This document shows positions 1,670 through 62,653 of a DNA stretch of 64,000 nucleotides, in pieces. This stretch comes from Thermincola ferriacetica. GTDB lineage: Bacteria; Bacillota; Thermincolia; Thermincolales; Thermincolaceae. The position numbers and the translations under genes are program-made. The notes beneath the pieces were generated by a model, which worked only from the letters and a program-made list of their open reading frames with translations, was not told where the DNA came from and made no database searches. The DNA is taken from positions 124,001 to 188,000 of the forward strand of contig NZ_LGTE01000001.1 of assembly GCF_001263415.1 (NCBI RefSeq). Direction: 5' to 3'. The stretch's first letter is position 1. Every line of letters starts with the position of its first letter.

Positions 1670-1805
1670 TAAAATAGCTTCTGGTTAAAATGGTCTTGAC
1701 GCCGAATATTTAAAGAGAAAATTTGGCGCAAGAAATGTAACGGGAGAGATTTTGTTCGGAAACCGAGAGTATAAATTATTAAAAATGGCGAAAGGAGCGG
1801 GAGAA

Positions 1806-2750: not shown

Positions 2751-2778
2751 TATAAAGAAAAAGGAGGCATGAAAATTA

Positions 2779-3576: not shown

Positions 3577-3596
3577 ATAAAACTGTTACAAGATAA

Positions 3597-3630
3597 TTTA
3601 GAGAGCTCCCTCTTAAGGGAGCTCTCTAAA
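3597..3630 (+). terminator. perfect 14-bp hairpin after acsE
   Basis: TTTAGAGAGCTCCC (3597-3610) is exactly reversed and complemented at 3617-3630 around TCTTAA. The downstream sequence (ATTAAGTTCTCTC) is not a clean T-run. It may be a partial terminator or an RNase barrier separating acsBCDE from the hdrA-metF block, which starts 31 bases later with its own AGGAGGGG ribosome site. Confidence 0.6.
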
Positions 3631-3661
3631 ATTAAGTTCTCTCTTTAGGAGGGGAGCTTAA

Positions 3662-5344
3662 ATGGGGAACAAAGCAAGAGTGGGTGTTTTTCTCTGTGGC
3701 TGTAAGGAGGTTATTACCGATACTGTAAATTTTGGCCGGATAATTGCCGAAATTAAAAAGACTTCCTTCGTTCAGTACATACGGGAAAGCCAGCACCTTT
3801 GCGCCTGCCTTGAGGGTGAACTTATGGCTGCGGAAATTAAAAAATACCGATTAAACCGCATCGTTGTAGTTGGTTGTTCAGGTCCCCGGCAGGAGAAATT
3901 TTTTACATCTATTTTGGAGAAAGTTGGCCTTAATTTACATTTTTTTACTATGGTTAATCTGAGGGAAGAATGCAGTTTAGTACATCCGAAAAGCGTTCAG
4001 GCGACCGCAAAAGCGTTGCGGCAAGTAAAAAGGGGTATTGCCCGGTTAGTTAAAATGGATGAAGTATCTTGTGAAGTAGTTAAGGTTAACCGGACTGTCC
4101 TGATTATCGGCGGTGGGATAGCCGGAATAGAAACAGCTCTGGAAGTAGCGGCCAAGGGGTTAAAAGTGATTATTATAGAACGAGAAGAGTTTCCTGGCGG
4201 TAACCTAACAAAGATTAATTCAGTATATGGAATAGATTCAAAACCTTCTGAAATTTTGAAAGAAAAATTAGCTTTATTAAAGGCTAATTCTGACATAAAT
4301 TTGATGACATCTACCAAAGTGATTGATATTGACGGTAATATTGGTAATTTCACTGTTTATCTGGAAAACGAGGGACAGGAATTTTCTGTTAAGGTTGGTT
4401 CCATTGTAGTGGCCACCGGGTTACAAACCATTTTCTGTTCCGTTAAGTATGGTTTAGGAATTGCCGATAATTTACTGGGGCTAGCGAAGTTAGAGCATTA
4501 TTTATTACAGGGAAAAGATTTCACGAAAAAGAAAATATCTTTCGTTATTGGTAAAACGGGCGAAAATTTCAATTTACCTTTTATTGTGGCTCTGAAAAAT
4601 GCCTTATATCTGAAGACGAGATTCGATGCAGAAATATATGTATTTTACTCTAATATTAAGGTTGCCGGCGATAACTGGGAGGCTTTATATACCGAAGCAA
4701 GGGATGCCGGAATCAGATTTTATAAATTTACAGAAAAGCTTAATATAACCGTTGATAACGGAGAAGTGACTATCAGTTATGAGGATCCTTTGCTGGCCGC
4801 TAAGATTCCCGGAAATTACAGGATTGTATGTGATCTTGCCATACTGCCTGAAGAAATTGTACCCTCGGACGGAACGGAAGAACTGGCCGGGATGCTGGAC
4901 ATCGAACTGGGGCCCGACTATTTTCTGGGGCCTGATAATGTTCATCTTTTTTCGGAGTATACAAGCAGGGAGGGCATATACCTGGCAGGCAGTTGTCAGA
5001 AGCCCAGCCTCCTTCCGGAAATTATGATACAGGCTAAAACAGTGGCTGCAGATATATATAAGAAATTGAGAACGGAAGAGGTTAAAGTTGAATATATGCA
5101 ACCCTATGTAGATGCTTCAAAATGCGTGGTATGTCTAACCTGTTATCGCTGCTGTCCCCATAAAGCCATTACCATTGCATACGATCGGCAGTTCAATAAC
5201 TTGTATAGATCTGCGGCACAGGTAAATCCTCTTGCTTGCCGGCGCTGCGGAATATGTGCTGCGGAGTGTCCGGCTAAAGCCATTCATTTACCCGGTTATA
5301 CTGATTTGCAAATTTTGGCCCAACTGGATGCCCTGGAGGTCTAA
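3662..5344 (+). CDS. HdrA-like FAD/iron-sulfur oxidoreductase
   Basis: 560 residues. Related to HdrA, the flavin subunit of heterodisulfide-reductase-type complexes. An N-terminal cysteine-containing region (FLCGCKE, HLCACLEG, VVGCSGPRQ; residues 1-140) precedes a dinucleotide-binding fold (VLIIGGGIAGIE near 148-159, then an FPGGN flavin motif). Two C-terminal ferredoxin sites follow: CVVCLTCYRCCP (about 488-499) and CRRCGICAAECP (about 525-536). AGGAGGGG at 3647-3654 precedes the ATG. With MvhD, MetV and MetF downstream, it probably feeds or draws electrons from methylene-THF reductase, as in the Moorella MetFV-HdrABC-MvhD complex. No hdrB or hdrC lies in this block. Confidence 0.85.
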   Translation: MGNKARVGVFLCGCKEVITDTVNFGRIIAEIKKTSFVQYIRESQHLCACLEGELMAAEIKKYRLNRIVVVGCSGPRQEKFFTSILEKVGLNLHFFTMVNLREECSLVHPKSVQATAKALRQVKRGIARLVKMDEVSCEVVKVNRTVLIIGGGIAGIETALEVAAKGLKVIIIEREEFPGGNLTKINSVYGIDSKPSEILKEKLALLKANSDINLMTSTKVIDIDGNIGNFTVYLENEGQEFSVKVGSIVVATGLQTIFCSVKYGLGIADNLLGLAKLEHYLLQGKDFTKKKISFVIGKTGENFNLPFIVALKNALYLKTRFDAEIYVFYSNIKVAGDNWEALYTEARDAGIRFYKFTEKLNITVDNGEVTISYEDPLLAAKIPGNYRIVCDLAILPEEIVPSDGTEELAGMLDIELGPDYFLGPDNVHLFSEYTSREGIYLAGSCQKPSLLPEIMIQAKTVAADIYKKLRTEEVKVEYMQPYVDASKCVVCLTCYRCCPHKAITIAYDRQFNNLYRSAAQVNPLACRRCGICAAECPAKAIHLPGYTDLQILAQLDALEV

Positions 5345-5346
5345 CT

Positions 5347-5772
5347 ATGAATAACCAGAACAGCTTTGAGCCAAAACTTGTTGTTTTTTGTTGTGAGAAT
5401 TCGGGTCTTTTGGCGGCGGAGCAGGCAGGTAAAATGCAGTTATGCTATCCTGACAGAGTAGATTTGATAAAATTGCCGTGCGCTGGAAAAATAGATGTTA
5501 TATATTTTTTGAAGGCCTTGGAAAAAGGGGCTGACGGAGCTATTTTACTGGCGTGTCACCAGGAAAATTGTAGATTCCTTAAAGGCAATTCCCGAGCGGG
5601 TCAACGCGTTGTGCAGGTTAAAAAAATGCTTAAGGAAATCGGTATTGAAGAAGAACGGGTTGGCATTTATTATATCGCTGGAAATATGGGCCACGAGTTT
5701 GTAGAGATAGTCCGGGGAATGTATGACAGGCTTAGGGAGATGGGGCCAAATCCCGGGAAGGTGATAAAATGA
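5347..5772 (+). CDS. MvhD/FlpD-family iron-sulfur subunit
   Basis: 141 residues, the normal size for the MvhD (FlpD) family, which passes electrons between HdrA and a partner enzyme using a [2Fe-2S] cluster. The conserved cysteines are at residues 15-16 (FCCENSG), in LPCAGKID and in LACHQENC. The gene starts 2 bp after the HdrA-like stop and ends by a 4-bp ATGA overlap with metV, so the three are translationally coupled. The substrate partner is inferred from context to be MetVF. Confidence 0.9.
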   Translation: MNNQNSFEPKLVVFCCENSGLLAAEQAGKMQLCYPDRVDLIKLPCAGKIDVIYFLKALEKGADGAILLACHQENCRFLKGNSRAGQRVVQVKKMLKEIGIEEERVGIYYIAGNMGHEFVEIVRGMYDRLREMGPNPGKVIK

Positions 5773-6452
5773 TTGTTGCCGAACGAAAACCCATTGAAGA
5801 AATTCTGAAAGTCGTTAACAGCCACGGGAAAGTATTGATTTTAGGATGTCGTGGTTGTGTTACAGTATGTTCAGCCGGCGGGGAAAAGGAAGTTAGCATT
5901 CTTGGTTCCCAGTTAAATCTGGCCTGTAACAAAGAAAAACGCCGTGTAGAGTTTTTTGAAAAGACTGTAGAGCGGCAGTGCGACTTTGAGTACCTGGCTG
6001 GTTTGCGGCATGAGGCGAAAGAAGCGGAGGCAATTCTGTCTATGGCCTGCGGAGTGGGTGTGCAGCTATGTGCCGAGTATTTCAGGAATAAACATGTTTA
6101 TCCGGCTCTTAATACTAAATTTTTAGGTGCCAATATTGCTTTAGGTAAGTGGGAGGAAAGGTGTCAGGCATGCGGAGATTGCGTGTTGGGACAAACAGGC
6201 GGCATTTGCCCGGTTTCTCGTTGTTCGAAAAGCTTGTTTAACGGGCCTTGCGGTGGATCGCAGCATGGCAAGTGCGAAGTGGGGAAGGGCGAAATTGAAT
6301 GTGGTTGGGCCCTGATTATAGAACGCCTTACCCGCTTGAGGAAACTGGATAACCTGAAGGAAATAATGGGCATGAAAAACTGGCGTTTTAGTCGTGATGG
6401 CGGCCCGAGAAAGCTGGTAAGGGAGGAATTATACCTTGAAGGCAGGAAGTAG
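5769..6452 (+). CDS. metV: MetV, zinc/iron-sulfur partner of methylenetetrahydrofolate reductase
   Basis: 227 residues. It matches the methylene-THF reductase C-terminal-like family that partners MetF in acetogens. The cysteine-rich region around residues 132-178 is the hallmark: CQACGDCVLGQTGGICP, then NGPCGGSQHGKCE and ECGWA. The ATG overlaps the mvhD stop (ATGA), and its 3' end overlaps metF by 17 bases. Known role in the family: structural and electron-transfer subunit of the reductase. The exact cluster content cannot be read from sequence. Confidence 0.9.
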   Translation: MIVAERKPIEEILKVVNSHGKVLILGCRGCVTVCSAGGEKEVSILGSQLNLACNKEKRRVEFFEKTVERQCDFEYLAGLRHEAKEAEAILSMACGVGVQLCAEYFRNKHVYPALNTKFLGANIALGKWEERCQACGDCVLGQTGGICPVSRCSKSLFNGPCGGSQHGKCEVGKGEIECGWALIIERLTRLRKLDNLKEIMGMKNWRFSRDGGPRKLVREELYLEGRK

Positions 6453-7356
6453 ACTGGAAAAGGTATTAAATGCCGGTCATTTTGCTGTTACCGGTGAAAT
6501 AAATCCTCCCCAAAATGCCGAAGGCAAAGTCATTGCTCATCACGGCGAAATGCTCAGAGATTATTGTGATGCAATAAACCTTGCTGATAACCAAACTGCC
6601 GTGGTACGCCTATCCAGTATCGCTTCAGGCATTGTTTTACAGCAAATGGGCATCGAGCCGAACATTCATATTGTAGCCAGGGACAGGAACCGCATAGCTA
6701 TCCAGAGTGATGTTCTGGGAGCGGCGGCTTTTGGGATTAAGAATGTTCTCTGCCTGTCCGGAGACCACCAGACCTTGGGTAACCATCCTACTGCTAAAAA
6801 CGTCTATGATATAGATTCGATTCAGATGTTAAAAATGCTGGACGGCATGAGAAAAGGCTATTTTGCTAACGGTGAAGAAATTAAGGGCCCACGGCCGGAA
6901 CTTTTCCTGGGCTGTGCAGCTAACCCTTTTGGCGATCCTTTTGAGTACCGTGTATTGCGCTTGGCCAAAAAGATTGAAGCAGGAGCAGATTTTGTACAAA
7001 CCCAGAGTATTTTTGATATGGAAAGGTTTGAAAGATGGATGGAAATAGTCAGGGCTGCAGGGCTGCATAAAAAGGTTAAAATTCTGGCTGGGGTAACCCC
7101 TCTAAGGTCCTGGAAGGCCGCTGATTTTATCAAAAATAAGGTGGCCGGAATGATTGTTGACGACAGACTCATTGAACGGCTTAAGGCTGCGAAGGACCCA
7201 CAGGAAGAAGGCATCAAGATATGCGTGGAGCAAATAAATTACCTGAAGACCATGGAAGGTATTGCCGGAGTGCACATAATGGCTGTTGCCTGGGAAGAAA
7301 TTATTCCTGAGATTGTTAAGAGGGCCAACCTCTATCCAAGACCTCAAATAAATTAA
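6436..7356 (+). CDS. metF: methylenetetrahydrofolate reductase
   Basis: 306 residues, a compact TIM-barrel MetF. It reduces methylene-THF to methyl-THF, the last step of the methyl branch. Visible features are the N-terminal VTGEINPP, the flavin region CLSGDHQTLGNHP and the FVQTQSIFD strand. The start is TTG at 6436 with GGGAGG at 6421-6426; the gene begins inside the end of metV. Co-transcription with metV, mvhD and an HdrA-like gene suggests the electron donor is not simply NADH. The flanking HdrA-like genes on both sides are unusual. Confidence 0.95.
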   Translation: MKAGSRLEKVLNAGHFAVTGEINPPQNAEGKVIAHHGEMLRDYCDAINLADNQTAVVRLSSIASGIVLQQMGIEPNIHIVARDRNRIAIQSDVLGAAAFGIKNVLCLSGDHQTLGNHPTAKNVYDIDSIQMLKMLDGMRKGYFANGEEIKGPRPELFLGCAANPFGDPFEYRVLRLAKKIEAGADFVQTQSIFDMERFERWMEIVRAAGLHKKVKILAGVTPLRSWKAADFIKNKVAGMIVDDRLIERLKAAKDPQEEGIKICVEQINYLKTMEGIAGVHIMAVAWEEIIPEIVKRANLYPRPQIN

Positions 7357-7383
7357 CCCTATGTTTGGCGGAGGAGAAATACT

Positions 7384-8424
7384 TTGCATAACAAACGAGT
7401 TCTTGTTATTGGCGGCGGTACCGCTGGGATGGCTGCTGCATTAGAAGCTGCCGACCAGGGACTTTTGGTATTTCTGGTAGAAAAAAATAGGGATATGGGC
7501 GGCTGGGCCTATACTTACTGTTGTAAAGCCACAGAAAAATGTAATAAGTGCGGGACCTGCTTGGTGCTGCAGTTAAAAGGACATGTTGAAAGACACCCAC
7601 TGATTACCGTTTTTTGCAATAGCCATGTTATAGGAATGACCGGCAGGGCAGGAGCCTATACGGTGCAAATAGGAACAGAACAGGGGGAAATAAAACTTGA
7701 CGTGGCTGCCATAATACTGGCTACCGGATTTAAACCTTTTAATGCAGCATTAAAAGGAGAGTTTCACTATGGCAAACACCCTAATGTAGTTACTGCACTG
7801 GAATTAGAGCAAACTTTAAGGACAAAAGGCTCAGTGGTACGAGCCTTTGGTGAAGTCAGAAAGATAGGGTTTATCCAGTGTGTCGGCAGCAGGGATTTGG
7901 CATTGGGCAATAACTATTGTTCCAGGGTGTGTTGCATGTATGCCGCCAAGCTGGCCAAACTCTTACGGGCGGAACTACCCCAAGCGGAAATATCGATTTT
8001 CTTTATGGATTTGCAGACCTTTGGTAAAGGGTTTGATGATTTCATTAAATCTTGCAGGTCAGATGACAAAATCCATTTTATCAGGGGAATTCCGGCCAAG
8101 ATTTTCAGTTTCCCCTATGACAGGTTAACTGTAAGGTATGCTGATTCAATAACGGGTGAAGCTATTGAAGAAAAATTTGATATCATAATCCTTTCGTCGG
8201 CTATCTTGCCGGGTGAAGATACGGCAAAACTGGCCGAAATTTTTGGTCTGGAAACTGATGAACATGGTTTCTTTGCCGTGAACCCGTTAAATCCTGTTGC
8301 TACAAATAAAGAAGCGGTTTTTGTTGCCGGAACGTGCGAGTCTCCCAAAGATATACCGGGGAGTATTGAACAGGGAAAGGCAGCTGCCGGCGCTGTAGTT
8401 GATTTTCTTTGTTCCACATTATGA
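7384..8424 (+). CDS. short HdrA-like FAD protein
   Basis: 346 residues from TTG 7384, with GGAGGAG at 7370-7376. It begins with a dinucleotide fold (VLVIGGGTAGMAAALEA, residues 6-22) and a FAD motif DMGGWA, followed by a cysteine cluster CCKATEKCNKCGTC (about 44-57) and FIQCVGSRD plus CSRVCCMYAAKLAK in the middle. This is the flavin core of HdrA without the N-terminal domain and without C-terminal ferredoxins. It ends the operon, 27 bp after metF. It probably contributes a second flavin centre to the reductase complex; that is inference. Confidence 0.8.
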   Translation: MHNKRVLVIGGGTAGMAAALEAADQGLLVFLVEKNRDMGGWAYTYCCKATEKCNKCGTCLVLQLKGHVERHPLITVFCNSHVIGMTGRAGAYTVQIGTEQGEIKLDVAAIILATGFKPFNAALKGEFHYGKHPNVVTALELEQTLRTKGSVVRAFGEVRKIGFIQCVGSRDLALGNNYCSRVCCMYAAKLAKLLRAELPQAEISIFFMDLQTFGKGFDDFIKSCRSDDKIHFIRGIPAKIFSFPYDRLTVRYADSITGEAIEEKFDIIILSSAILPGEDTAKLAEIFGLETDEHGFFAVNPLNPVATNKEAVFVAGTCESPKDIPGSIEQGKAAAGAVVDFLCSTL

Positions 8425-11578: not shown

Positions 11579-11686
11579 CTCTTATCAAGAGAGGTGGAGG
11601 GACTGGCCCAATGAAACCCGGCAACAACGTCTGAAGAGACGGAATGTGCCAATTCCTGCAGAAGTTCGGCTTCTGGCAGATAAGAG
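11579..11686 (+). ncRNA. SAM-I (S-box) riboswitch aptamer
   Basis: Helix P1 is exact: CTCTTATC (11579-11586) with GATAAGAG (11679-11686). Between them are the conserved S-box pieces: AGAGGTGGAGGGACTGGCCC, then ATGAAACCCGGCAAC, and the late GTGCCAATTCCTGC segment before P4. The expression platform can be read directly. The 3' strand of P1 plus AAGAGG can pair with CCTCTT (11708-11713) as an antiterminator; when SAM locks P1, that CCTCTTTT is free to form the terminator. High SAM should therefore switch off the operon at 11826-14237. Confidence 0.96.
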
Positions 11687-11736: not shown

Positions 11737-11825
11737 ATGTTTAGGGAATTTTGCTTTGAGGGAAAGTTTCCTTGAGGTTTTGATAGAAACTTTTGTTATT
11801 TTTCGCTAAATTAGGAGGGAAGGAA

Positions 11826-38478: not shown

Positions 38479-39717
38479 ATGCGAACCAAAAGTCTCATAT
38501 CCCTGTTGTTAACGATTGCACTCATAGCTGTTTCAGGGTACCTATTAATTCATTTTAAAGTTTTCCAAAAGCACATTAATCTCGGACTTGACCTGCAAGG
38601 TGGTCTTCATGTGGTAATGGAGGCTGTTGACACTCCGGAGGCTCCGGTTACTGATGACTCCCTTGACAGGGTGAAGGCTGTCATTGAACGACGGGTTAAT
38701 GAAACAGGGGTCAAAGAACCCATCATACAAAGAGAAGGAAAAAGAAGACTTATTGTGGAATTGGCCGGTATTAAAAACCCAGATGCGGCTATTGATTTAA
38801 TCGGTAAAACAGCGGTTTTGCAGTTTAAAACATCCGACGGTAAGGTGGTAGTATCCGGCAGTGATCTGAAGGATGCTCAGGCGGCAAAAAACCCTACTAC
38901 GGGAGAAATTTATGTAGCATTGGAATTTAACAAGGAAGGTACCAAAAAATTTGCCGACGTAACATCTGAACTGGTACAAAAATACAGTGAGAGCGACCCA
39001 AGGAGAAGAATCGGCATTTACCTTGACCAGCAACAACTGCAAAATCCTGTGGTCAGGGAGCCCATTCCTAATGGACGAGCCCAGATAAACGGCTATAACA
39101 CACTGGAAGAAGCAGCCAAAATGGCAGTTCTCCTTCGCTCGGGTGCGCTTCCTGTGAAGATGGAAAAAGTTTATACCCAAACCGTTGGTCCTACCCTGGG
39201 CGCCGATTCCTTGGCTAAGTCCACTAAGGCCGGTATTGTTGGTATTATCGCCATTTTAATCTTTATGATTGCCTATTACCGGATACCGGGTCTGATTGCT
39301 AATGTGGCTCTTGCCGCTTATGCCTTGATAGTGTTAGGTCTTTTTGCTGCGTTGCAGGCTACCCTGACGCTGCCCGGCATTGCCGGATTCCTCTTGTCAA
39401 TAGGGATGGCCGTAGATGCTAACATCATTATATTTGAACGGGTTAAAGAAGAGCTGCGGGAAGGCAACTCCCTGCGCCGGTCTATTGAATCCGGGTTTTC
39501 CAGGGCCTTCTGGACCGTATTCGATTCCAACGTAACTACGCTGATTGCCGCGGCTATCCTGTATTATTTCGGTACAGGCGCTATTCGCGGGTTTGCCATA
39601 ACGTTAAGCATCGGTATTTTGGCGAGTATGTTTACGGCAATTACCCTGACCCGGTTCATGCTAAGAAACCTGGCCGATTCGAAACTCATAACCAACAAGA
39701 AATTATACGGTGCGTAG
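38479..39717 (+). CDS. secD: protein translocase subunit SecD
   Basis: 412 residues, short Gram-positive form. N-terminal helix, then LGLDLQGGLHVVMEA and the periplasmic P1 domain, followed by five helices ending with FAITLSIGILASMFTAITLTR. SecD and SecF use the proton gradient to pull proteins across the membrane. GGGAGG precedes ATG 38479. Stop is 12 bp before secF. Confidence 0.96.
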   Translation: MRTKSLISLLLTIALIAVSGYLLIHFKVFQKHINLGLDLQGGLHVVMEAVDTPEAPVTDDSLDRVKAVIERRVNETGVKEPIIQREGKRRLIVELAGIKNPDAAIDLIGKTAVLQFKTSDGKVVVSGSDLKDAQAAKNPTTGEIYVALEFNKEGTKKFADVTSELVQKYSESDPRRRIGIYLDQQQLQNPVVREPIPNGRAQINGYNTLEEAAKMAVLLRSGALPVKMEKVYTQTVGPTLGADSLAKSTKAGIVGIIAILIFMIAYYRIPGLIANVALAAYALIVLGLFAALQATLTLPGIAGFLLSIGMAVDANIIIFERVKEELREGNSLRRSIESGFSRAFWTVFDSNVTTLIAAAILYYFGTGAIRGFAITLSIGILASMFTAITLTRFMLRNLADSKLITNKKLYGA

Positions 39718-39729
39718 GGGGTGGCTCGG

Positions 39730-40632
39730 ATGACACTGGATATTATCGGAAAAAGGAAAATCTGGTTCGCGATTTCATTAATTATTATATTGGCCGGTAT
39801 TGCTTCAATGATCATCAAGACCTTTACTCTTGGAGCGCCCCTTAACCTGGGAATAGACTTTACCGGTGGCAACATTATTACTGTTTCCTTTACTAAAAAC
39901 GTTTCTGTCTCCGATGTGAGACAGGCACTGGACAAACTAGACCTGGGTAACAGTGTTATTCAAAAGACGGCAACAGGGGAATTTATCATCAGGACTAAAC
40001 CCTTGACCGACAAGGAATATAAACAGGTTCTGGATGCCTTCAAAAACGATGTGGCGCCTTATCAGGAAGGTAAACTGAGCCGCAATGAAGTGAAGCCTGT
40101 CATAGGAAAAGAACTGACTTTAAATGCTATTTGGGCTTTAGCTATTGCTTCGGTATTAATGGTGATTTACATCACTTTTCGGTTTGAATTTAAATTTGGT
40201 ATTGCGGCTATTATAGCTTTGTTACATGACGTTTTTGTAACTATGGGTATCTTCTCCATCTTCTGGTGGGAAGTAGACAGCGCTTTTGTTGCCGCTATTC
40301 TGACCATCATTGGTTATTCCATCAATGATACCATCGTTATTTTTGACCGGATCAGGGAAAACCTGCACCGTAAGAAAAAGGACGAGAACTTTGAGGAACT
40401 GGTCAACAAAAGTATCATGCAGACCATGGCCAGGTCTATCAATACCGTTCTCACCGTTATTATCGTCCTGGTTGCTCTGTTGATTTTCGGAGGTTCTACA
40501 ATCCGTTACTTCACGCTGGCTATGCTCATTGGTGTCATTAGTGGGGCCTATTCCTCAATATTTAACGCCAGCCCGTTATGGGTGGAATTTAAGTATTGGG
40601 AACAACGCCGGCGTAAATTGGCCAAGACCTAA
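39730..40632 (+). CDS. secF: protein translocase subunit SecF
   Basis: 300 residues from ATG 39730 (GGGGG 8 bases upstream); GTG 39721 would give 3 more. Conserved LGIDFTGGNIITV at the start of the periplasmic loop, then five helices with IGYSINDTIVIFDRIRENL. Partner of SecD in the same transcript, ended by a terminator at 40648. Confidence 0.96.
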   Translation: MTLDIIGKRKIWFAISLIIILAGIASMIIKTFTLGAPLNLGIDFTGGNIITVSFTKNVSVSDVRQALDKLDLGNSVIQKTATGEFIIRTKPLTDKEYKQVLDAFKNDVAPYQEGKLSRNEVKPVIGKELTLNAIWALAIASVLMVIYITFRFEFKFGIAAIIALLHDVFVTMGIFSIFWWEVDSAFVAAILTIIGYSINDTIVIFDRIRENLHRKKKDENFEELVNKSIMQTMARSINTVLTVIIVLVALLIFGGSTIRYFTLAMLIGVISGAYSSIFNASPLWVEFKYWEQRRRKLAKT

Positions 40633-40796: not shown

Positions 40797-40828
40797 CTTA
40801 AGTCGATAGGTGAAATTGGGGAGGAAAA

Positions 40829-43800
40829 ATGGAGCATTATAAAACGATCTGGTCTTTTCACAATAACAACACTTTTATCCAGGAACTTTTGGCCCGCCGG
40901 TTAGGTATTTCTAAAATAACGGCCCAAATTTTAGCTAACAGGGGCATCTGTTCTGTTGAGGAAGCCCGGACTTTCCTTTTCGGTTCTCTGGAAGACCTGT
41001 ACGACCCCTTGCAGATGCACGGCATGGAGGAGGCAGTACAGCGAATAAAGCAGGCTATCAAAGAAAATCAGCGTATTTTGGTGTATGGTGACTACGATGT
41101 GGACGGCATAACCAGTACGGTATTACTGCTTGACACTCTTGAATTTCTGGGCGCTGCTTGTGACTTTTACATACCGCACCGGCTGACAGAAGGCTACGGG
41201 TTAAATATAAATAGCCTGAAAACGATTAAGGAACAAGGTTTCAATTTAGTTATTACTGTTGATTGTGGAATATCTTCCGCTGATGAAGTGTCCTGGGCCC
41301 GGGACAACGGATTGGAGATTATTATTACTGACCACCATGAGCCGCCGGAACATATCCCGCAGGCTTATGCCGTGATCAACCCCAAACAGGCCTGGTGTAC
41401 ATACCCTTTTAAAGAATTGGCCGGCGTGGGCGTGGCCTTTAAACTTGCCCAGGCGCTTTTACGGGCCCATGAAAAAGAATACTTGGCCCCCAAATTGCTG
41501 GACCTTGTAGCTTTAGGCACGGTAGCTGATATGGTTCCGCTAGTCGGGGAAAACAGGATTACTACTAAGCAGGGTCTGCAATTAATTAATGCCGGCCATC
41601 GGGAAGGACTGGCAGCCCTGATTGAGGTGGCCGGTCTGGCGGACCAAAGCATTGATTCTGAGCAGATTTCCTTTGCTCTTGCGCCCAGGCTAAATGCCGT
41701 GGGCAGAATTGACCATGCAGCTAAAGGTGTAAGGTTACTGCGGGAAAAAAACAGGGAAAAGGCTGTCAGTATCGCCAAAGCGCTGGACAGGGCCAACAAG
41801 GAAAGACAGGCCATTGAAAATCTTATTTTTACGGAGGCTGTGGAAATTATCGAAAGTAATAGTCTTTTAGACAACAAAGCGTTTGTTTTGGCTCGGCCTG
41901 ACTGGCACCTGGGAATAGTCGGGATTGTTGCTTCCAAATTGGTTAACAGGTACTGTCGGCCGGTGATTTTGTTGTCTGTGAACGGCGAGGTTGCTAAAGG
42001 TTCAGCCAGAAGCATACCGGGCTTCAACTTGTTTGCGGCCCTGCAGTCGTGCGAGGCGTTTTTAAAGAAATATGGAGGCCACAGCCAAGCTGCCGGTTTA
42101 ACTTTGAACGTTGATGATATTTCTGCTTTTACCGCTGCTTTCAATGAAATTGTAGATCAACAGATTACTGCAGAGCATATGGCCGAAACGCTCCCAATTG
42201 ATGGAGAAATCTCTTTCAAGGATGTGACCTTTGATTTATATAACCAACTGGTGGCGTTGGAACCTTTCGGGTTTGGCAACCCGACGCCGCTCTTTGCTTG
42301 CCGTCAGGCGGATATTATTGATTGTCGGAAGGTCGGTAGCGATGGTAAGCACCTGAAAATGAAAATAATGAACGAAAAGCTGCTGATGGAAGCTATTGGT
42401 TTTAATTTATCGGCATGCAAAAATTCAATAAATTTCGCAGACAAAATAGATATAGTTTTTGAACTGAAGAAAAATGACTGGAACGGCAGGTCCAACCTGC
42501 AGTTAAACGTCAGGGCCATAAAACAGGCAGGTTCTCCCGACAATCCTTTTAGAGCCAGCTCCCCATCCGCAGAACAGGAGACGCCGAAAAGCTTTCTTGA
42601 CGAGCTGTTTGACCATGCGGCAGAGTACCTTGTTGACGACTACTACCGCAATATTGGTGAAAAGGAAGAGTTTTATACTAAAGTTGTCGGTGTTAGTTTT
42701 GATAATAGGCAGGAAATTGTGGCCAGGCTGAGAGAAGGAGAAAAATTGTTCCTGGTCCGGGAACACAATAACCCGCATGACCCAAATGCAGTGCGGGTTG
42801 AAAACAGGAGCGGGGAACAGGTAGGATATCTCAATGCCCGTTTAGCCAAACATTTTGCGCCGTTGCTGGATAAAGGGGAACAATACCTGACCCTGGTTTC
42901 CAATGTAACCGGCGGACAGGATAAAAACTACGGGCTGAATATTATTATTCAAAAGGTTCAGGATAAATCTTTTGCTGAGAAACGGGCTATTCTTGCAGAC
43001 ATCAGGAAACGCCTAAAATCCTTGGACGAAAAAAAATTGTTGGAAGCTGTCCGGGGAGCACTCCTGGGGCCTTACCCCTATCGGGAGTCGCAGCTTGCGG
43101 CTTTGCAGAGCCTTTTGGAAGGTAACAATACCTTGGCTATTTTTGGAACGGGCAGAGGTAAATCCGCTGTCTTTCAATCCATGGCTGTGTATAAAGCTAT
43201 TAAAGAAGATGCTCTGACTATCATAGTTTATCCTCTGCGCGCTCTGGTTAATGACCAATATGAAGCCATGTTAAACAAACTTTCAGCGCTGGGCATGCGC
43301 ATTTATAAGGGCAACGGCACCCTCAGCGCCGGCGAAAGGGCGATGCTTTTTGCCGTATTGGAGGCCGGTGATATAGATATTTTGTTAACTACGCCTGAGT
43401 TTTTGTCTTTCCACATGGAAAAAATCTTGGCCATGCCCAAAAAAATAGGACTGTTTGTGGTGGACGAAAGCCATCATATCAGCATGTCTTCGTTGTCCCA
43501 CCGGCCTGCATACAAACGTATTTCCCATATAGCGGAAGGCCTGGGCCGGCCTCTTACTCTTGCCGTTACCGCAACAGCCAACGATGAAGTTGCGCAGGAA
43601 ATAATTGCTGTGCTGGCAATTAACCAAGTGGTCATCGACCCATATGTGAGGAAAAACTTACAGTTAATAGATAAACGAGGGATTGAGGATAAAAGCGCTT
43701 ATATTAAACAGGTGCTGGCCACCGGCGGAAAAACGATTATCTATGTTAACAGCCGTCTGAAAGCTGTTGAACTGGCCCTGATGCTAAGGGAAGCTAATCC

Positions 43801-44530
43801 TCATCTAGCCGATAAAATTGCCTATTACCATGCCGGACTGAAGAATGAGCACCGGCATACAATTGAAAAAATGTTTAAGGAAGGCGAGCTTCTGGCTATT
43901 GTGGCAACTTCTGCCTTTGGTGAAGGAATTGACATCCCTGATGTACGGCATGTAGTATTGTACCACCTGAATTTCAATTTTACCGAGTTTAACCAGCAGA
44001 GCGGCCGGGCCGGTCGCGACGGGGGTACAAGCCATATTCACCTCCTTTGTGGGCCAAAGGATATCAGGATTAACGAATTTATCCTGGAATTGGCGGCGCC
44101 GGGGCGGGATTTTCTGGCTGCGCTTTATACAGCGCTGCAGCAGTTGAAAAATGATTGGGGAGAAATCAGGTTAACCAACAAAGAAATTGCTCACAAAATG
44201 GAAAAGGCGGGGATGCGCCTGGCCAAGGACAGTTCTGTATCCTGCGGTCTGGGCATACTGGAAGAATTAGGACTTATACGCCGGGAATCGGTCGGAAGAG
44301 AAAGGCAAATATTTGTCAACCCGCCGCCGGGAAATAAAATAAACCTGGAGAACTCGTTGCGATTTCTTGAGGGACAGGAAGAGAAAGCGGCTTTTCAGGA
44401 ATTTCAGCAGGCGTTTTTTGACGCTTCATCAGAAGAACTGCTCAATCAGGTAAACCGGGCGATTTTTCCGAGTAAATATGCAACAAATTCCGGAATTGAA
44501 GGGCAGATGCTCAATAGCACATTGGGATAA
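40829..44530 (+). CDS. RecJ-HIRAN-RecQ-like fusion (exonuclease plus helicase)
   Basis: 1233 residues, one uninterrupted frame, GGGGAGG before ATG 40829. Residues 1-570 form a complete single-strand-specific exonuclease RecJ: DYDVDG (about 88), DHHEPP (about 168), the GGHSQAAG motif and the C-terminal OB fold. About 614-700 form a HIRAN domain (GVSFDNRQEIVARL, NPHDPNAVRVENRSGEQVGYL). About 750-1233 form a RecQ-like superfamily 2 helicase: GTGRGKS (773), DESHH (877), motif VI QQSGRAGRDGG (about 1055). No separate recJ or recQ is nearby. RecQ and RecJ act together in end resection in other bacteria; here they are one protein. The zinc and HRDC parts of RecQ were not seen. Confidence 0.85.
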   Translation: MEHYKTIWSFHNNNTFIQELLARRLGISKITAQILANRGICSVEEARTFLFGSLEDLYDPLQMHGMEEAVQRIKQAIKENQRILVYGDYDVDGITSTVLLLDTLEFLGAACDFYIPHRLTEGYGLNINSLKTIKEQGFNLVITVDCGISSADEVSWARDNGLEIIITDHHEPPEHIPQAYAVINPKQAWCTYPFKELAGVGVAFKLAQALLRAHEKEYLAPKLLDLVALGTVADMVPLVGENRITTKQGLQLINAGHREGLAALIEVAGLADQSIDSEQISFALAPRLNAVGRIDHAAKGVRLLREKNREKAVSIAKALDRANKERQAIENLIFTEAVEIIESNSLLDNKAFVLARPDWHLGIVGIVASKLVNRYCRPVILLSVNGEVAKGSARSIPGFNLFAALQSCEAFLKKYGGHSQAAGLTLNVDDISAFTAAFNEIVDQQITAEHMAETLPIDGEISFKDVTFDLYNQLVALEPFGFGNPTPLFACRQADIIDCRKVGSDGKHLKMKIMNEKLLMEAIGFNLSACKNSINFADKIDIVFELKKNDWNGRSNLQLNVRAIKQAGSPDNPFRASSPSAEQETPKSFLDELFDHAAEYLVDDYYRNIGEKEEFYTKVVGVSFDNRQEIVARLREGEKLFLVREHNNPHDPNAVRVENRSGEQVGYLNARLAKHFAPLLDKGEQYLTLVSNVTGGQDKNYGLNIIIQKVQDKSFAEKRAILADIRKRLKSLDEKKLLEAVRGALLGPYPYRESQLAALQSLLEGNNTLAIFGTGRGKSAVFQSMAVYKAIKEDALTIIVYPLRALVNDQYEAMLNKLSALGMRIYKGNGTLSAGERAMLFAVLEAGDIDILLTTPEFLSFHMEKILAMPKKIGLFVVDESHHISMSSLSHRPAYKRISHIAEGLGRPLTLAVTATANDEVAQEIIAVLAINQVVIDPYVRKNLQLIDKRGIEDKSAYIKQVLATGGKTIIYVNSRLKAVELALMLREANPHLADKIAYYHAGLKNEHRHTIEKMFKEGELLAIVATSAFGEGIDIPDVRHVVLYHLNFNFTEFNQQSGRAGRDGGTSHIHLLCGPKDIRINEFILELAAPGRDFLAALYTALQQLKNDWGEIRLTNKEIAHKMEKAGMRLAKDSSVSCGLGILEELGLIRRESVGRERQIFVNPPPGNKINLENSLRFLEGQEEKAAFQEFQQAFFDASSEELLNQVNRAIFPSKYATNSGIEGQMLNSTLG

Positions 44531-44599: not shown

Positions 44600-46768
44600 A
44601 TGGGCCTGGATAAACTTTTGGCAAAAATAAAACAGTACAACCCTCAAGTTGATGAAAAATTTATTGAAGAAACATACAGGTTTGCGGAAAAGGCCCACGA
44701 AGGTCAGACCAGGATTTCGGGGGAACCTTACATTATACATCCGCTCAGTGTTGCGCACATTCTGGCTGATTTAGAACTGGATGTTGTTACCATCGCGGCC
44801 GGATTATTGCACGATGTCGTTGAAGACACGGATAGTCCTCTAGAAACCATTGAGGAGAAATTCGGAGTTGAAATTGCCCTGCTTGTTGACGGCGTTACCA
44901 AGTTAAGCCGTATTTCATATAAAAACAAGATGGAACAACAGGTTGAAAACCTGCGCAAAATGTTTTTGGCCATGGCTAAAGACATTCGGGTTATATTGAT
45001 AAAATTGGCTGACCGCCTTCATAATATGCGCACACTCAAACATCTGGCGGAACCCAAGCAAAAGGAAATATCCGAAGAGACCCTTGAGATATTTGCGCCA
45101 TTGGCCCACCGGCTCGGTATTTTCAAAATAAAGTGGGAACTTGAAGACCTGGCCCTCAGGTACCTGGAGCCTAAGAAATATTACGAACTGGTTGACGGTA
45201 TTGCCCAAAAACGGGCAGAGCGGGAAGAATATATCGCCCGGGTGACCCAAATATTGGCGGAAAAGCTTGAAAACGTCGGGATAAAAGCCGATATCCAGGG
45301 CAGGCCGAAACATTTTTACAGTATTTATAAAAAAATGCTGGAGCAACAGAAGGAACTGGCAGAAATTTATGATTTACTGGCGGTACGGGTTATTGTCGAT
45401 ACAGTAAAAGACTGCTATGGCGCTCTCGGTATCATTCATACCCTTTGGAAGCCCATACCGGGGCGTTTCAAGGATTACATTGCCATGCCCAAGTCAAATA
45501 TGTACCAGTCACTGCATACAACGGTTATCGGTCCGAACGGCGAACCTTTTGAAATTCAGATCCGGACCTGGGAAATGCACCGCACCGCCGAATACGGTAT
45601 CGCGGCTCACTGGAGGTATAAAGAAGGTGGTGGCCGTGGCGATGAAGAATTCGAGAATAAGCTGGCCTGGTTGCGGCAATTGTTGGAATGGCAGAATGAT
45701 ATGCGTGACGCCAGGGAATTTATGGAGACTCTTAAGATAGACCTGTTTTCCGACGCAGTATTTGTATTCACTCCCAAAGGCGATGTTGTAGAACTGCCTG
45801 CCGGCGCAATACCTATAGACTTTGCTTACCGTATTCACACACAGGTAGGTCACCGCTGTATCGGCGCCAAAGTAAACGGCAAGATAGTGCCTCTTGATTA
45901 TAAGCTGGCCAATGGCGATATAGTGGAAATATTGACGCAGAAGCAGGCAGCCGGGCCCAGCAGGGACTGGCTGAATATAGTAAAAACTTCGGAAGCCAGG
46001 AGTAAAATTCGGGCCTGGTTTAAAAAAGAAAAAAGAGAGGAAAATATCATCAAGGGGCGGGATGCCCTTGAAAAGGAAGTTAAAAAAGCAGGTTACGATG
46101 TAGCAGAATTTTTAAAGCCTGAAAGACTATCAGAGCTTCCGCGGAAATTTAATCTCGTCACCCTTGATGATTTATACGCCTCCCTGGGTAATGGGGTTTT
46201 TACTCCCCAGCAGGTTATAGCCAAACTGAAGGATGAACAGCAGAAGCAGGGTAAGAACGTCAAGATAGAGGAATTATTAAAGAAAGAGCATTCCAAAAAG
46301 AAGAAAGCGTCAAGCCAGGGGATTAAGGTAGAAGGGCAGCAGGATGTTATGATCCGCCTGGCCCGGTGCTGCAATCCTGTACCCGGCGACCCCATCATTG
46401 GCTATATTACCAGGGGACGGGGAGTTTCAGTGCACAGGAAAGACTGTCGAAACCTTGTCAACCACAGCCTGAGTGAAGGCGAACGGATGATTCAGGTTAG
46501 TTGGGACGATACAGACAGGGGTTCTTATCATGTGCATTTGGAAATATCAGCTATGGACCGGGCCGGTCTGCTTACAGATGTTATGCTCATTTTGTCTGAA
46601 ATGAGAATAAGCGCTGATTGGGTGAATGCCCGGGGGACTAAAAACAAACAGGCTACCATTGATCTGGTGCTGGAAATCGGCAGCCTCGAGCAATTGGAAA
46701 ACATTATGAGCAAAATTCGCCGCGTGAAAGATGTTTACGATGTTTGGCGGGTCACTCCAAAGGTTTAA
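44600..46768 (+). CDS. rel: bifunctional (p)ppGpp synthetase/hydrolase (Rel)
   Basis: 722 residues. N-terminal hydrolase HD domain (LLHDVVEDTDSPLETIE), synthetase domain (RFKDYIAMPKSNMYQSLHTTVIGPNGEPFEIQIRT), TGS (VFVFTPKGDVVELPAGAIPIDFAYRIHTQVGH) and ACT domains in the usual order. Makes and destroys the stringent alarmones. GGAG 11 bases before ATG 44600. It follows the recJ fusion, as recJ-relA do in many Firmicutes, and precedes dtd. Confidence 0.97.
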   Translation: MGLDKLLAKIKQYNPQVDEKFIEETYRFAEKAHEGQTRISGEPYIIHPLSVAHILADLELDVVTIAAGLLHDVVEDTDSPLETIEEKFGVEIALLVDGVTKLSRISYKNKMEQQVENLRKMFLAMAKDIRVILIKLADRLHNMRTLKHLAEPKQKEISEETLEIFAPLAHRLGIFKIKWELEDLALRYLEPKKYYELVDGIAQKRAEREEYIARVTQILAEKLENVGIKADIQGRPKHFYSIYKKMLEQQKELAEIYDLLAVRVIVDTVKDCYGALGIIHTLWKPIPGRFKDYIAMPKSNMYQSLHTTVIGPNGEPFEIQIRTWEMHRTAEYGIAAHWRYKEGGGRGDEEFENKLAWLRQLLEWQNDMRDAREFMETLKIDLFSDAVFVFTPKGDVVELPAGAIPIDFAYRIHTQVGHRCIGAKVNGKIVPLDYKLANGDIVEILTQKQAAGPSRDWLNIVKTSEARSKIRAWFKKEKREENIIKGRDALEKEVKKAGYDVAEFLKPERLSELPRKFNLVTLDDLYASLGNGVFTPQQVIAKLKDEQQKQGKNVKIEELLKKEHSKKKKASSQGIKVEGQQDVMIRLARCCNPVPGDPIIGYITRGRGVSVHRKDCRNLVNHSLSEGERMIQVSWDDTDRGSYHVHLEISAMDRAGLLTDVMLILSEMRISADWVNARGTKNKQATIDLVLEIGSLEQLENIMSKIRRVKDVYDVWRVTPKV

Positions 46769-50007: not shown

Positions 50008-50083
50008 TGGCAGGGGAGACAGGACTCGAACCCGCAACCAACGGTTTTGGAGACCGCTACTCTACCAATTGAGCTACTCCCCT
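50008..50083 (-). tRNA. tRNA-Trp (anticodon CCA)
   Basis: 76 bases, encoded CCA end. Acceptor AGGGGAG pairs with CTCCCCT. The D-loop starts AGCTCAATTGGTAGAG; the anticodon loop CTCCAAA gives CCA between stems CGGT and ACCG; the T-arm contains GGTTCGAGTCC. Its own promoter and terminator are visible, so it is transcribed alone. Confidence 0.96.
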
Positions 50084-59524: not shown

Positions 59525-62500
59525 TTACATAGCTTTCTTCATTGTTTTTGCGTTTTTCATATACTCGGTCATCTTCGGCGCCAGTTTGGGAGCTACCTGC
59601 GGCAGCATAGCCGGCATTATTTTCTCCATTACCTTAGGCAGCATAGTCGGGAGCTTTTCTTCCATCTGAACCGGCATATGCGGAATATACTGTTTCATCA
59701 ATTCAAGCACTTTTGGCATAAGTTTTGGCATCATTTGCGGCAGTAGCATGGGCATCAGGGTAGGAATCATTTTTTCCATCATGGCCAGGGCCGGGCCTTG
59801 TACGGGGCCGGGCAGGGATTCCATACCCTTCATCATCGGTTGCATGGAAGAAGGCATTGCCGCCATGATTTCCGGCATCATATCGGCCATCATATCCACT
59901 ATGCCATCGACGGTCATTATTTCCAGGGCTTTTTCGAAAACGCTCCACATGTACAGGGTGTATTCTGAACTGTCCTGGTATTCGTATCCCAAAGCCTCCA
60001 GGATGAAGTCGGTGAAATCAAGAATCGGCATGTCTTTGCCGGCATGTTTTGCGGAAGCACGCAGTTGTACTTCACAGCACGGACAGGTAGCTATCATGGC
60101 ATCAGCTTTTACATCAACAGCTTCCTGTACCCGCATATCGCCAAGCTTATCTGCTACTGGCGGCGCGGCAATCCTGGTCAACACACTGCCGCAGCACAAA
60201 GCATCTTCACGGTGATGCTCCATTTCAACGAATTCAACGCCGGGAATTGATTTCAACACATTCCGTGGAGCGTCATAGATGCCGCTATGGCGTCCGATAT
60301 GACAGGAATCGTGCCAGGTCAGCCGTTTATTGACCGGCTTTTTAAATTTCAGTTTACCCTCTTTAATCAGTTCTTCCGTTTTTTCAGAGATGTGTTTTAG
60401 TTTAAATTCATAAGGGTAACCGAGCTTTTTCGCCCAAATGGGATACTGGTGGGCAAAGGCCATATAACAGCCGGGGCAGGAAATAACAATTTCTTTGACC
60501 CCGCGTTTGAGCAACCCTTCAATGTTATTTCTGAAGATAAACTCAAAGGTGTCCAGTTTACCAGCCACCAGCATTGGCGTTCCGCAGCAGCCCTCGTCTT
60601 TGCCCAGAGTGGTAAATTCCACGCCGGCTTCTTTAAGGATTCTGGCAGCGCCTACCGCCGTATTTGTGGTAACCAGGGAGGCGGTGCAACCGGCCCAGTA
60701 AGCTATTTCAGCCTTATCCTTAATTTCGATATCTTTCGGTATCCACGCATCCCTTTCATTTCTCCGGCCGGCCCAGATGTTCAGGTCACTTTCCACGCTG
60801 GCAGCCATCATTTCAAAACCGTTATAGGTGGAGAAGCCCATGTCGTTAACCAGCATAGGCCTGAAGGCATCCCAAAGTTCCATAATGGGCAGGTTAACCT
60901 GACAAACAGGGTTGCAGCGTTTACAGGTAGTACACATAAGGAACATATCCACTGTTTTTTGGTCCAACTGCAGGTTTCCTTTCAGATATTCTCTCAGGAT
61001 ATACCACTTGCCCCGTGGTGTTGAGCTTTCCCAGCCAAAGCCCATGTTCAAGGTACAGGTATCCACACAGTACCCACACTGGGCGCAGGCAAAGGAAGCG
61101 CGCGCCATAACTTCGGCTAAACGTTTTTTTACTTTGGGTTTATCGCTTAAAAACTTTTCCGCAATGTTCAATAACGGTTCGGTGGCCCTGGCTGCTTTCA
61201 TGGCAGTCCTCAGAAGAACGGGGTTGCCTGTGGAGGAAAGAACCTTACCGGGGTTAAAGATATTATCAGGGTCAACGGCTTTTTTATATGCTGACATTTT
61301 TTCGAATACATCTTTACCCAGGGCTTCTTCCGCTTCATCGGTAAAGTATAAACCGGTGGAGTAAGTGCGACCTCCGTGAGCCTTGGCAATCTCCATCATA
61401 ACAAGAGATTTCGCAAAACCGATGTTGTAAGCGGCGGTCCTTTCATCACCGGTCAGGAAGGCTAACAGGGTAACGCTGTCTTTTTTTACCAGACTACCTT
61501 CGATGGAAATGCCTTCAAGTTTTTTACCCGCTTCCTCCACCACATCGGCGATGGTATCTAAAGGAATGATAGCCTCACTCGGTATCAGGGACGGGCCCAG
61601 GTTTTTCACGCGCATGGTATAGAAGCGCTCAGACCATTCATGTTGGGCTACCTTATCCGGCAGTATTTCTCCGCCTGAACTGTTAAGAATGGAAACAAGC
61701 TTGTCAGCTACCATGCTTTCTCGGGAACCAGGGTAGACGACCATAAGCAGGTGTTTGCCGTGTGGTGGGTGAGTAATTTCCCTGTTGTTTTCTGCATGAA
61801 CGCCTTCAATGTTATATTGGGAGGCAGTTTCCACCGCATCGACTTTATTCTTAATGAAATCGGCTGTGGTAAAGCTGATATGCCACACAGGGAGGGAAGC
61901 CGCCGTAATTTCTTTAATGGTTGCCACTAACCGGCGGAAATCATCGAAGGCGGCGAGAATAAGTTTTTCTTCCGACAAGTCACGGACAGGGAGAGTAACT
62001 TCGACGATAAATCCGGTGATGCCCTCGGCCTGGTTAATTAGCGCAATTTCCTCGCCTTTAAATGTTTTTACCTCGCCGGAAGGGATGACCACTTTGGCTT
62101 CGACAATGTTATCACCGATAAATCCGTACTCGAAGCTGCCTATACCGGAGCCGCCCTGCGCGAGCCAGCCACCAACAGTGGCGCCGGGGGCGCTGGAAGG
62201 ATAGAGCCTGAGGGAAAGGCCTTCTTTTTGCAGCTCTTGCTCAAGTTTTTCCCAGATTACGCCAGGTTGCACAGTAACGGTTTTCTTTTCCTTATTTATA
62301 CCAAGAACCTTATTCATCCTGGTGAAGGCCACAACAATACCGCCCTTAATCGGGATAACTCCGCCGTAGCCGCTGGTAGCAGCGCCGCGGGGAACTAAAG
62401 GAATCTTCTTTTCCCGGGCGTAGCGAACCAACTCCACAATTTCTTCAGTTGAAACAGGTTGTACAACGGCATCGGCAGTTTTCAGGACCATCTTTTCGAC

Positions 62501-62599
62501 TGCTGCGGGTAGGTTAGCCACGTCGTGGGAATAGAGCGTCCTTTCTACAAGATCGAAAGATACTCTTCCGGGAAAAATTTTTTCCAGCCTGCTTTTCAT
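59525..62599 (-). CDS. FAD-linked oxidase / (Fe-S) fusion with methionine-proline-rich tail
   Basis: 1024 residues from ATG 62599 (AAGGAGG 8 bases upstream); the open frame to 62653 would start inside the operator. Residues about 45-470 are a PCMH-type FAD oxidase (GlcD/Ldh-like: VPRGAATSGYGGVIP, PGATVGGWLAQGGSGIGS). About 535-610 are ferredoxin-like sites (CAQCGYCVDTC, CTTCKRCNPVC). About 650-890 are two HdrD-type CCG domains (EGCCGTPML, DALCCGSVL, CPCCEVQLRA). The last 130 residues (895-1024) hold about 30 Met with Pro every fourth position. Predicted to oxidise a hydroxy acid such as lactate or glycolate; the tail function is unknown. Confidence 0.88.
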   Translation of the reverse strand: MKSRLEKIFPGRVSFDLVERTLYSHDVANLPAAVEKMVLKTADAVVQPVSTEEIVELVRYAREKKIPLVPRGAATSGYGGVIPIKGGIVVAFTRMNKVLGINKEKKTVTVQPGVIWEKLEQELQKEGLSLRLYPSSAPGATVGGWLAQGGSGIGSFEYGFIGDNIVEAKVVIPSGEVKTFKGEEIALINQAEGITGFIVEVTLPVRDLSEEKLILAAFDDFRRLVATIKEITAASLPVWHISFTTADFIKNKVDAVETASQYNIEGVHAENNREITHPPHGKHLLMVVYPGSRESMVADKLVSILNSSGGEILPDKVAQHEWSERFYTMRVKNLGPSLIPSEAIIPLDTIADVVEEAGKKLEGISIEGSLVKKDSVTLLAFLTGDERTAAYNIGFAKSLVMMEIAKAHGGRTYSTGLYFTDEAEEALGKDVFEKMSAYKKAVDPDNIFNPGKVLSSTGNPVLLRTAMKAARATEPLLNIAEKFLSDKPKVKKRLAEVMARASFACAQCGYCVDTCTLNMGFGWESSTPRGKWYILREYLKGNLQLDQKTVDMFLMCTTCKRCNPVCQVNLPIMELWDAFRPMLVNDMGFSTYNGFEMMAASVESDLNIWAGRRNERDAWIPKDIEIKDKAEIAYWAGCTASLVTTNTAVGAARILKEAGVEFTTLGKDEGCCGTPMLVAGKLDTFEFIFRNNIEGLLKRGVKEIVISCPGCYMAFAHQYPIWAKKLGYPYEFKLKHISEKTEELIKEGKLKFKKPVNKRLTWHDSCHIGRHSGIYDAPRNVLKSIPGVEFVEMEHHREDALCCGSVLTRIAAPPVADKLGDMRVQEAVDVKADAMIATCPCCEVQLRASAKHAGKDMPILDFTDFILEALGYEYQDSSEYTLYMWSVFEKALEIMTVDGIVDMMADMMPEIMAAMPSSMQPMMKGMESLPGPVQGPALAMMEKMIPTLMPMLLPQMMPKLMPKVLELMKQYIPHMPVQMEEKLPTMLPKVMEKIMPAMLPQVAPKLAPKMTEYMKNAKTMKKAM

Positions 62600-62653
62600 G
62601 AGAAAGACCTCCTTAAGTATGATCAAATATAACAATAAAAATTTATATACCAT

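Follow-up and report, generated by a model that had tools for sequence, protein, structure and literature searches.

RecJ and RecQ are textbook partners, and a locus of Thermincola ferriacetica raises the question of whether their two activities can reside in one protein. The locus lies on contig NZ_LGTE01000001.1, within a stretch of 64,000 nucleotides (positions 124,001 to 188,000), hereafter called the window. The initial annotation read its frame at 40829..44530 (+) as a complete RecJ nuclease, a HIRAN domain and a RecQ-like helicase on a single chain. Is this gene real, where does it stand in the evolution of RecJ, and what could such a chain do? The explanation that we hold to be probable is that the gene is the sole recJ of its genome and an intact, ancient RecJ/HIRAN-helicase fusion, with an ordinary RecJ domain originating as its stub and with coupled action of its two halves.

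Domain organization of the fused protein

The frame opens with ATG and runs through 1233 codons with zero internal stops; a strong Shine-Dalgarno sequence, GGGGAGG (40818..40824, +), lies 4 nt upstream of the ATG. Six Pfam domains, each above its gathering cut-off, were found in the order DHH, DHHA1, RecJ_OB, HIRAN, DEAD and Helicase_C, which together with the single frame bears out the proposed chain. The nuclease half, like all parts of the gene on the (+) strand, consists of the DHH domain (residues 82-231; 41072..41521) with the motifs GDYDVDG, VDCG, TDHH and ADMVP intact, the DHHA1 domain (residues 350-442; 41876..42154) with GSARS and GGHxxAAG intact, and the RecJ_OB fold (residues 457-562; 42197..42514). 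Against the NCBIfam recJ model TIGR00644, the N-terminal half scored 583.7 bits, passing the curated cut-off of 396.9, and the features of RecJ membership (DHH, DHHA1, OB, metal and DNA motifs) were all found.

HIRAN is located between nuclease and motor as had been proposed. The match to PF08797 covers residues 614-685 between OB and DEAD, with 60.7 bits at a gathering score of 24.7 (E 1e-16), and the domain as a whole spans residues ~609-709 (42653..42955). Lobe 1 of the motor (RecA1/DEAD, residues 753-922; 43085..43594) carries Walker A GTGRGKS at 773-779, DESH at 879-882 and TAT at 914-916, and lobe 2 (RecA2/Helicase_C, residues 955-1065; 43691..44023) carries motif VI, QQSGRAGRDG. The SF2 core features (Walker A/B, motifs III-VI, two RecA lobes) are thus all present in the protein. 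A winged-helix-like tail with the signature K-x-D/N-L-x-x-S follows at residues 1090-1200 (44096..44428).

Targeted gene searches of the genome (3.18 Mb, 99.9% complete, 78 contigs) detected neither a second RecJ nor a true RecQ, the check for separate genes that had been proposed; other matches to the 1233-residue protein were helicases of ~25% identity. The fused gene is the only recJ of this genome.

Distribution and genomic context

The survey of other genomes showed that the same architecture recurs. In the order Thermincolales, 9 of 10 genomes gave a match, eight of them as a full-length single frame and the ninth running into a contig end. Among 299 genomes of the phylum, 22 from ten families hold an open frame of ~1170-1270 aa with a match of at least 41% over HIRAN and helicase (for one of them, over the helicase only). 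Since the single frame recurs, at 38-55% identity, in many genomes that were assembled independently, joining of two genes by assembly or frameshift is ruled out, and the fusion gene is real. A scan of species genomes gave 80 loci, comprising 59 RecJ-HIRAN-helicase fusions and 21 frames of HIRAN-helicase only. The fusions belong to Bacillota (including Thermincola, Peptococcaceae, Orenia and Anaerospora) and to the class Coriobacteriia of Actinomycetota; the HIRAN-helicase-only frames are mostly from Eremiobacterota, and a few of the latter start at the edge of a contig, so that they could be truncated fusions. An old and widely distributed architecture, the fusion is no local oddity.

Comparison with the standalone helicases also located the join. 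HIRAN and the tail, with its signatures K-x-D-L-x-x-S and INRPIYP, are present in these helicases as well, indicating that HIRAN and tail belong to the helicase partner and that the two genes were joined at residues 566-588 (42524..42592), a variable linker with low model confidence at 576-586, after which the sequence is common to standalone helicases. HIRAN comes with the helicase where the helicase stands alone, so it did not evolve as a linker between two engines.

Where the flanks could be read, the gene order was secD-secF-recJ-(apt)-relA-dtd, the standard neighbourhood of recJ. The conserved neighbours in the window are secD (38479-39717) and secF (39721-40632) upstream (together 38479..40632, +) and a relA/spoT-like gene (44600..46768, +), named from reading of its sequence, downstream. 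This context bears on the idea that the protein serves anti-phage defence and no housekeeping repair. In its favour, the motor gave hits to PADLOC helicase models, among them DpdF, and for HIRAN there was a match to a candidate defence family. The PADLOC matches are, however, to a generic helicase only, the gene occupies the housekeeping locus secDF-recJ-relA as the only recJ of its genome, and phage or plasmid records gave nothing closer to the family than RecQ-level similarity; a role in defence is therefore extremely improbable. Derivation of the fused gene from a phage or another mobile element was likewise rejected: no HIRAN-helicase was found in phage and plasmid records, and the RecQ-level matches were below 36% among those listed.

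The motor as a separate helicase family

The term RecQ-like proved adequate as a description of the motor, not as membership of the RecQ family. Against the RecQ family model TIGR00614 the motor scored 188.8 bits, below the curated cut-off of 219.8, and the motors of the fused relatives scored 141-210 bits, all below the same cut-off. The aromatic-rich loop of RecQ, DEAHCxSQWGHDFRPxY, was present in 5 of 5 RecQ controls and absent in all fused proteins, the present protein reading DESHHISMSSLSHRPAY. Only one Cys follows residue 1080, with no fixed number in the relatives, and the Pfam scan of the 1233-residue protein detected neither HRDC nor the RecQ zinc domain. RecQ membership was rejected on the curated score, the aromatic loop, the zinc cysteines and HRDC. 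The same scan detected neither a SWI2/SNF2 motor nor a RING domain.

The helicase tree placed the fused motors of both Bacillota and Coriobacteriia in one clade (support 90), with RecQ far outside it and the Eremiobacterota standalone motors as its sister (96, starred). An AlphaFold model of the C-terminal part (pLDDT 84) found RecQ cores as its best PDB matches by Foldseek. The motor is a separate HIRAN-helicase family, sister to RecQ, the motor that it most resembles in sequence and fold.

Two genomes with a decayed motor, G145 and G283, hold additional genes. G145 carries a fused RecJ with a dead motor, a separate ordinary RecJ, and a standalone HIRAN-helicase of 648 aa (L047:8343-10289), which falls inside the fused-motor clade and lies ~1.6 kb upstream of an SSB gene; this standalone copy has the look of a motor released secondarily. 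In both genomes the second RecJ is an ordinary, divergent one (L171 in G145, L172 in G283), and these two copies group together in the RecJ tree (100, starred).

Conservation of both halves

Every one of 23 aligned fused homologues retains all RecJ motifs, and 21 of them retain all helicase motifs. Pairwise comparison of the 20 intact members indicated higher identity for the helicase than for RecJ in 189 of 190 pairs (mean 53.2 vs 45.0%). HIRAN, with a mean identity of 50.8%, was more conserved than RecJ in 162 of the 190 pairs. By motif retention and conservation, both halves look alive. In HLTF, the HIRAN pocket for 3'-ended single-stranded DNA combines an aromatic pair, Y72 and Y93, with conserved polar residues. 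Within HIRAN of the fusion, residues R627, Q628, N648 and D651, on the pocket side, are invariant in 20 of 20 intact members; position 650, which aligns with HLTF Y93, is H, F or Y throughout, and position 624, placed against HLTF Y72 by hand only, is F or Y. A search of the PDB with the family HIRAN profile found the HIRAN domain of human HLTF (3.5e-11).

A reading in which the halves work independently, with the fusion serving co-expression or co-recruitment only, has on its side the variation of the linker in length and sequence; each half also persists alone in other lineages, and G145 combines a motor-dead fused copy with an intact separate HIRAN-helicase. Against this, ten families and a second phylum have kept the fusion intact, at a single locus. 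The identities of RecJ and helicase also covary (r = 0.90), though shared ancestry alone would give the same. We regard independent halves as improbable.

Origin of the C-terminal domain of ordinary RecJ

Many ordinary RecJs carry a C-terminal domain of 200-300 aa beyond the OB fold. With the HIRAN-helicase profile, remnants were detected in the ordinary RecJs of G011 (9e-36), G020 (3e-31, weak HIRAN) and G015 (2e-30, lobe 2 only), and further in G078, G024 and G099. A stub alignment was then built from the C-terminal domains of 11 ordinary RecJs, excluding G015, G024 and the long forms. By hhalign, the stub matched lobe 2 plus tail of the fused motors at 99.2% probability (E 1.5e-19), as compared with 0.2% for lobe 1 and 0.1% for HIRAN; reversed and column-shuffled nulls gave at most 0.3%. 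The halves of the stub each matched their own counterpart only (80.6% and 98.8%), the lobe-2 half being the weaker link in this Bacillota set. A second set of RecJs, independent of the first and drawn from the phylum of Eremiobacterota, matched lobe 2 plus tail at 99.5% (E 2.4e-22), and its lobe-2 half was stronger (96.8%). The stub profile also found the C-terminal domain of Staphylococcus aureus RecJ (PDB 8y30, 603-754, 1.9e-9); with the same profile, no homology was detected for the C-terminal domains of Deinococcus and Thermus RecJ. The Pfam family ssDNA-exonuc_C (PF10141) matched RecJ L152 at 2e-27 and RecJ L147 at 1e-4, just under the curated score, where Helicase_C also matched weakly (0.05). 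From these profile comparisons, ordinary RecJ of Bacillota and of the Eremiobacterota phylum almost certainly has a C-terminal domain homologous to lobe 2 and tail of the HIRAN-helicase; the tail of the Thermincola protein corresponds to the C-terminal half of this domain.

In which direction did the change take place? Several decay intermediates were found: HIRAN is lost with the motor intact in G199, Walker A is missing and the motor dead in G145b and G283, both lobes are decayed in G011, and lobe 2 alone is left in G015. In the RecJ-core tree, the reduced forms are nested among the fused ones, and a single clade for the intact fused RecJs was rejected (p-AU 3.9e-6). As the fused motors form one clade, one fusion followed by many losses fits best. 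The full fusion is thus very probably the older state, later reduced to the stub. The reverse would be that a RecJ with a RecA2-like and a winged-helix domain was ancestral, and that lobe 1 and HIRAN were gained later, making a helicase. Ordinary RecJ with the C-terminal domain is widespread, and change counts on an unrooted tree cannot separate gain from loss. The standalone HIRAN-helicase, however, has both lobes, each of them homologous to RecQ, together with the same tail, and some ordinary RecJs (G011, G020, G315) retain remnants of lobe 1 or HIRAN. Since the standalone helicase and RecQ are both two-lobed, the lobe-2 and tail piece in RecJ is most simply a leftover of loss, and later gain appears very unlikely.

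The mirror image of the stub was found in Eremiobacterota. At every locus with upstream DNA (for instance L135, L113, L121 and L142), a standalone HIRAN-helicase directly follows secD-secF, the slot of recJ elsewhere. RecJ was not found in any of 11 Eremiobacterota genomes with the HIRAN-helicase, either by protein search or with TIGR00644, a model positive in 13 of 14 controls. Of 58 genomes of the phylum, the helicase occurs in 20 and RecJ in 28, and no genome has both at E 1e-30. The exclusion gave a Fisher p of 2e-8, which overstates independence because the genomes are related, and the completeness of the 58 genomes is not stated. No remnant of RecJ was detected at the N-terminus of the Eremiobacterota helicases. 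Eremiobacterota thus appear to be bacteria managing without RecJ, a nearly universal bacterial nuclease. The frames at L097 and L104 have ~200 extra N-terminal residues with no Pfam match, and their start is maybe misplaced over secF.

From the trees and the intermediates, we infer that the fusion was cut down many times, with loss either of HIRAN and lobe 1, leaving the stub RecJ, or of RecJ, as in Eremiobacterota. We also favour, if with some reserve, the wider proposal that RecJ of several phyla descends from a single-chain nuclease-helicase, its end domain being the stump of a dead helicase and Eremiobacterota the reciprocal case, and that the intact machine persists as a HIRAN-guided enzyme of 5'-strand resection.

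Possible mode of action

RecJ resects 5' ends of single-stranded DNA, and RecQ, a 3'->5' helicase, stimulates RecJ (eLife 14294). HIRAN of HLTF binds 3' single-stranded DNA ends and is required for fork reversal (PMC4666394). By analogy with these systems, a coupled mechanism of resection is on balance the favoured one. HIRAN would capture the 3' DNA end at a gap, a break or a stalled fork; the RecQ-related motor would load on the strand held by HIRAN and unwind in the 3'->5' direction; and RecJ would digest, 5'->3', the strand with the 5' end that the motor displaces. RecA would thereby be provided with a 3' single strand; at a blocked fork, the outcome might instead be a nascent lagging strand that has been trimmed. 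One chain would then do, beside AddAB, what RecQ and RecJ do elsewhere as separate proteins. The processive end-resection enzyme proposed by the initial annotation is in the same way a prediction from domain functions.

Several observations weigh against this overall reading. Both the polarity of the motor and the 3'-end binding of HIRAN are carried over from relatives. HIRAN is not strictly required, because G199 lost it and yet kept an intact motor. The full-length model (pLDDT 85, pTM 0.54) leaves the relative placement of the domains uncertain. AddA is encoded in the T. ferriacetica genome, which makes the fusion unlikely to be the sole route of end resection in the cell, and 10 of 24 genomes encode a true RecQ alongside the fusion, indicating that the fusion is no simple replacement of RecQ. 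With respect to origin, the RecJ tree is unrooted, its deep branches are weak, and it leaves room for horizontal transfer. Lastly, the motor is devoid of RecQ strand-separation elements: the aromatic-rich loop and the zinc domain matter for unwinding in RecQ, and for this reason the motor may be a translocase and no unwinding helicase.

The lack of these elements makes fork remodelling the main rival. HIRAN and motor would form a double-stranded DNA translocase of the HLTF/RecG type reversing stalled forks, RecJ would trim either the regressed arm or the newly made lagging strand, and AddAB, of which AddA is present, would unwind for break resection. The role of HLTF HIRAN in driving fork reversal (PMC4666394) agrees with this scheme, and a conceptual parallel exists in archaea, where HAN, a relative of RecJ, acts with the Hef helicase at stalled forks (PMC5717133). 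The motor is nevertheless nearest RecQ by sequence and fold, and not SWI2/SNF2 or RecG, and we consider fork remodelling unlikely, though it deserves attention.

Comparison with known systems places the coupled nuclease-helicase beside, but not within, each of them. Like the fusion, WRN combines a nuclease and a RecQ-type motor in one polypeptide; its exonuclease, however, is of the DEDD 3'->5' type, its core is a true RecQ core with zinc/RQC, and HIRAN is lacking. RecQ itself (TIGR00614/TIGR01389; PDB 1oyw, 4tmu) is the nearest motor, has a winged-helix region after the motor and works with RecJ in known pathways, whereas the fused motors stay below its curated cut-off, lack its aromatic-rich loop, zinc cysteines and HRDC, and come with HIRAN. 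Bacillota RecJ (TIGR00644; S. aureus, PDB 8y30) shares the DHH-DHHA1-OB core with all motifs, the gene locus and the C-terminal domain homologous to lobe 2 plus tail, but is without HIRAN, lobe 1 and the ATPase motifs. In HLTF/Rad5, HIRAN is likewise N-terminal to an SF2 motor; this motor is of another SF2 family (SWI2/SNF2) and is combined with RING, whereas the fusion carries a nuclease and no RING ubiquitin ligase. In the Deinococcus radiodurans system of RecJ, RecQ and SSB, a helicase also stimulates RecJ resection and the C-terminal domain of RecJ binds partners (SSB-Ct), but the helicase acts in trans, no direct contact between RecJ and RecQ was found (eLife 14294), and the RecJ C-terminal domain is undetected by the stub profile. 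Archaeal HAN and Hef also pair a nuclease of the RecJ superfamily with an SF2 helicase, but as two separate proteins, with HAN acting 3'->5' and no HIRAN (PMC5717133).

RecJ, HIRAN and RecQ-type motors are each known. In the mostly open-access literature searched, no paper pairing "HIRAN domain" with RecJ was found, the two matches for a RecJ-RecQ fusion were judged irrelevant from title and abstract, and nothing was found for PF10141; neither the fusion nor a helicase origin of the RecJ C-terminal domain was found described there. As nuclease and motor occur naturally on one chain, a single protein and its point mutants suffice for a direct test of the coupling between unwinding and 5'-strand degradation. 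Such a chain would also give a concrete role to prokaryotic HIRAN domains, which were called uncharacterized in 2024 (PMC11090510).

Other features of the window

A SAM riboswitch (11579-11686, +; 96.9 bits) was found upstream of a 409-aa open reading frame at 11793, and a tRNA gene (50011-50083, -) was found by the Rfam scan. By eye, the 1042-aa frame at 59525-62653 (-) resembles a fusion of an FAD-linked oxidase with an Fe-S (CCG-domain) reductase half, and it has a long tail rich in methionine. The region 341-8424 (+) looks, also by eye, like a cluster of corrinoid/methyltransferase and heterodisulfide-reductase-like genes of the acetyl-CoA pathway type.

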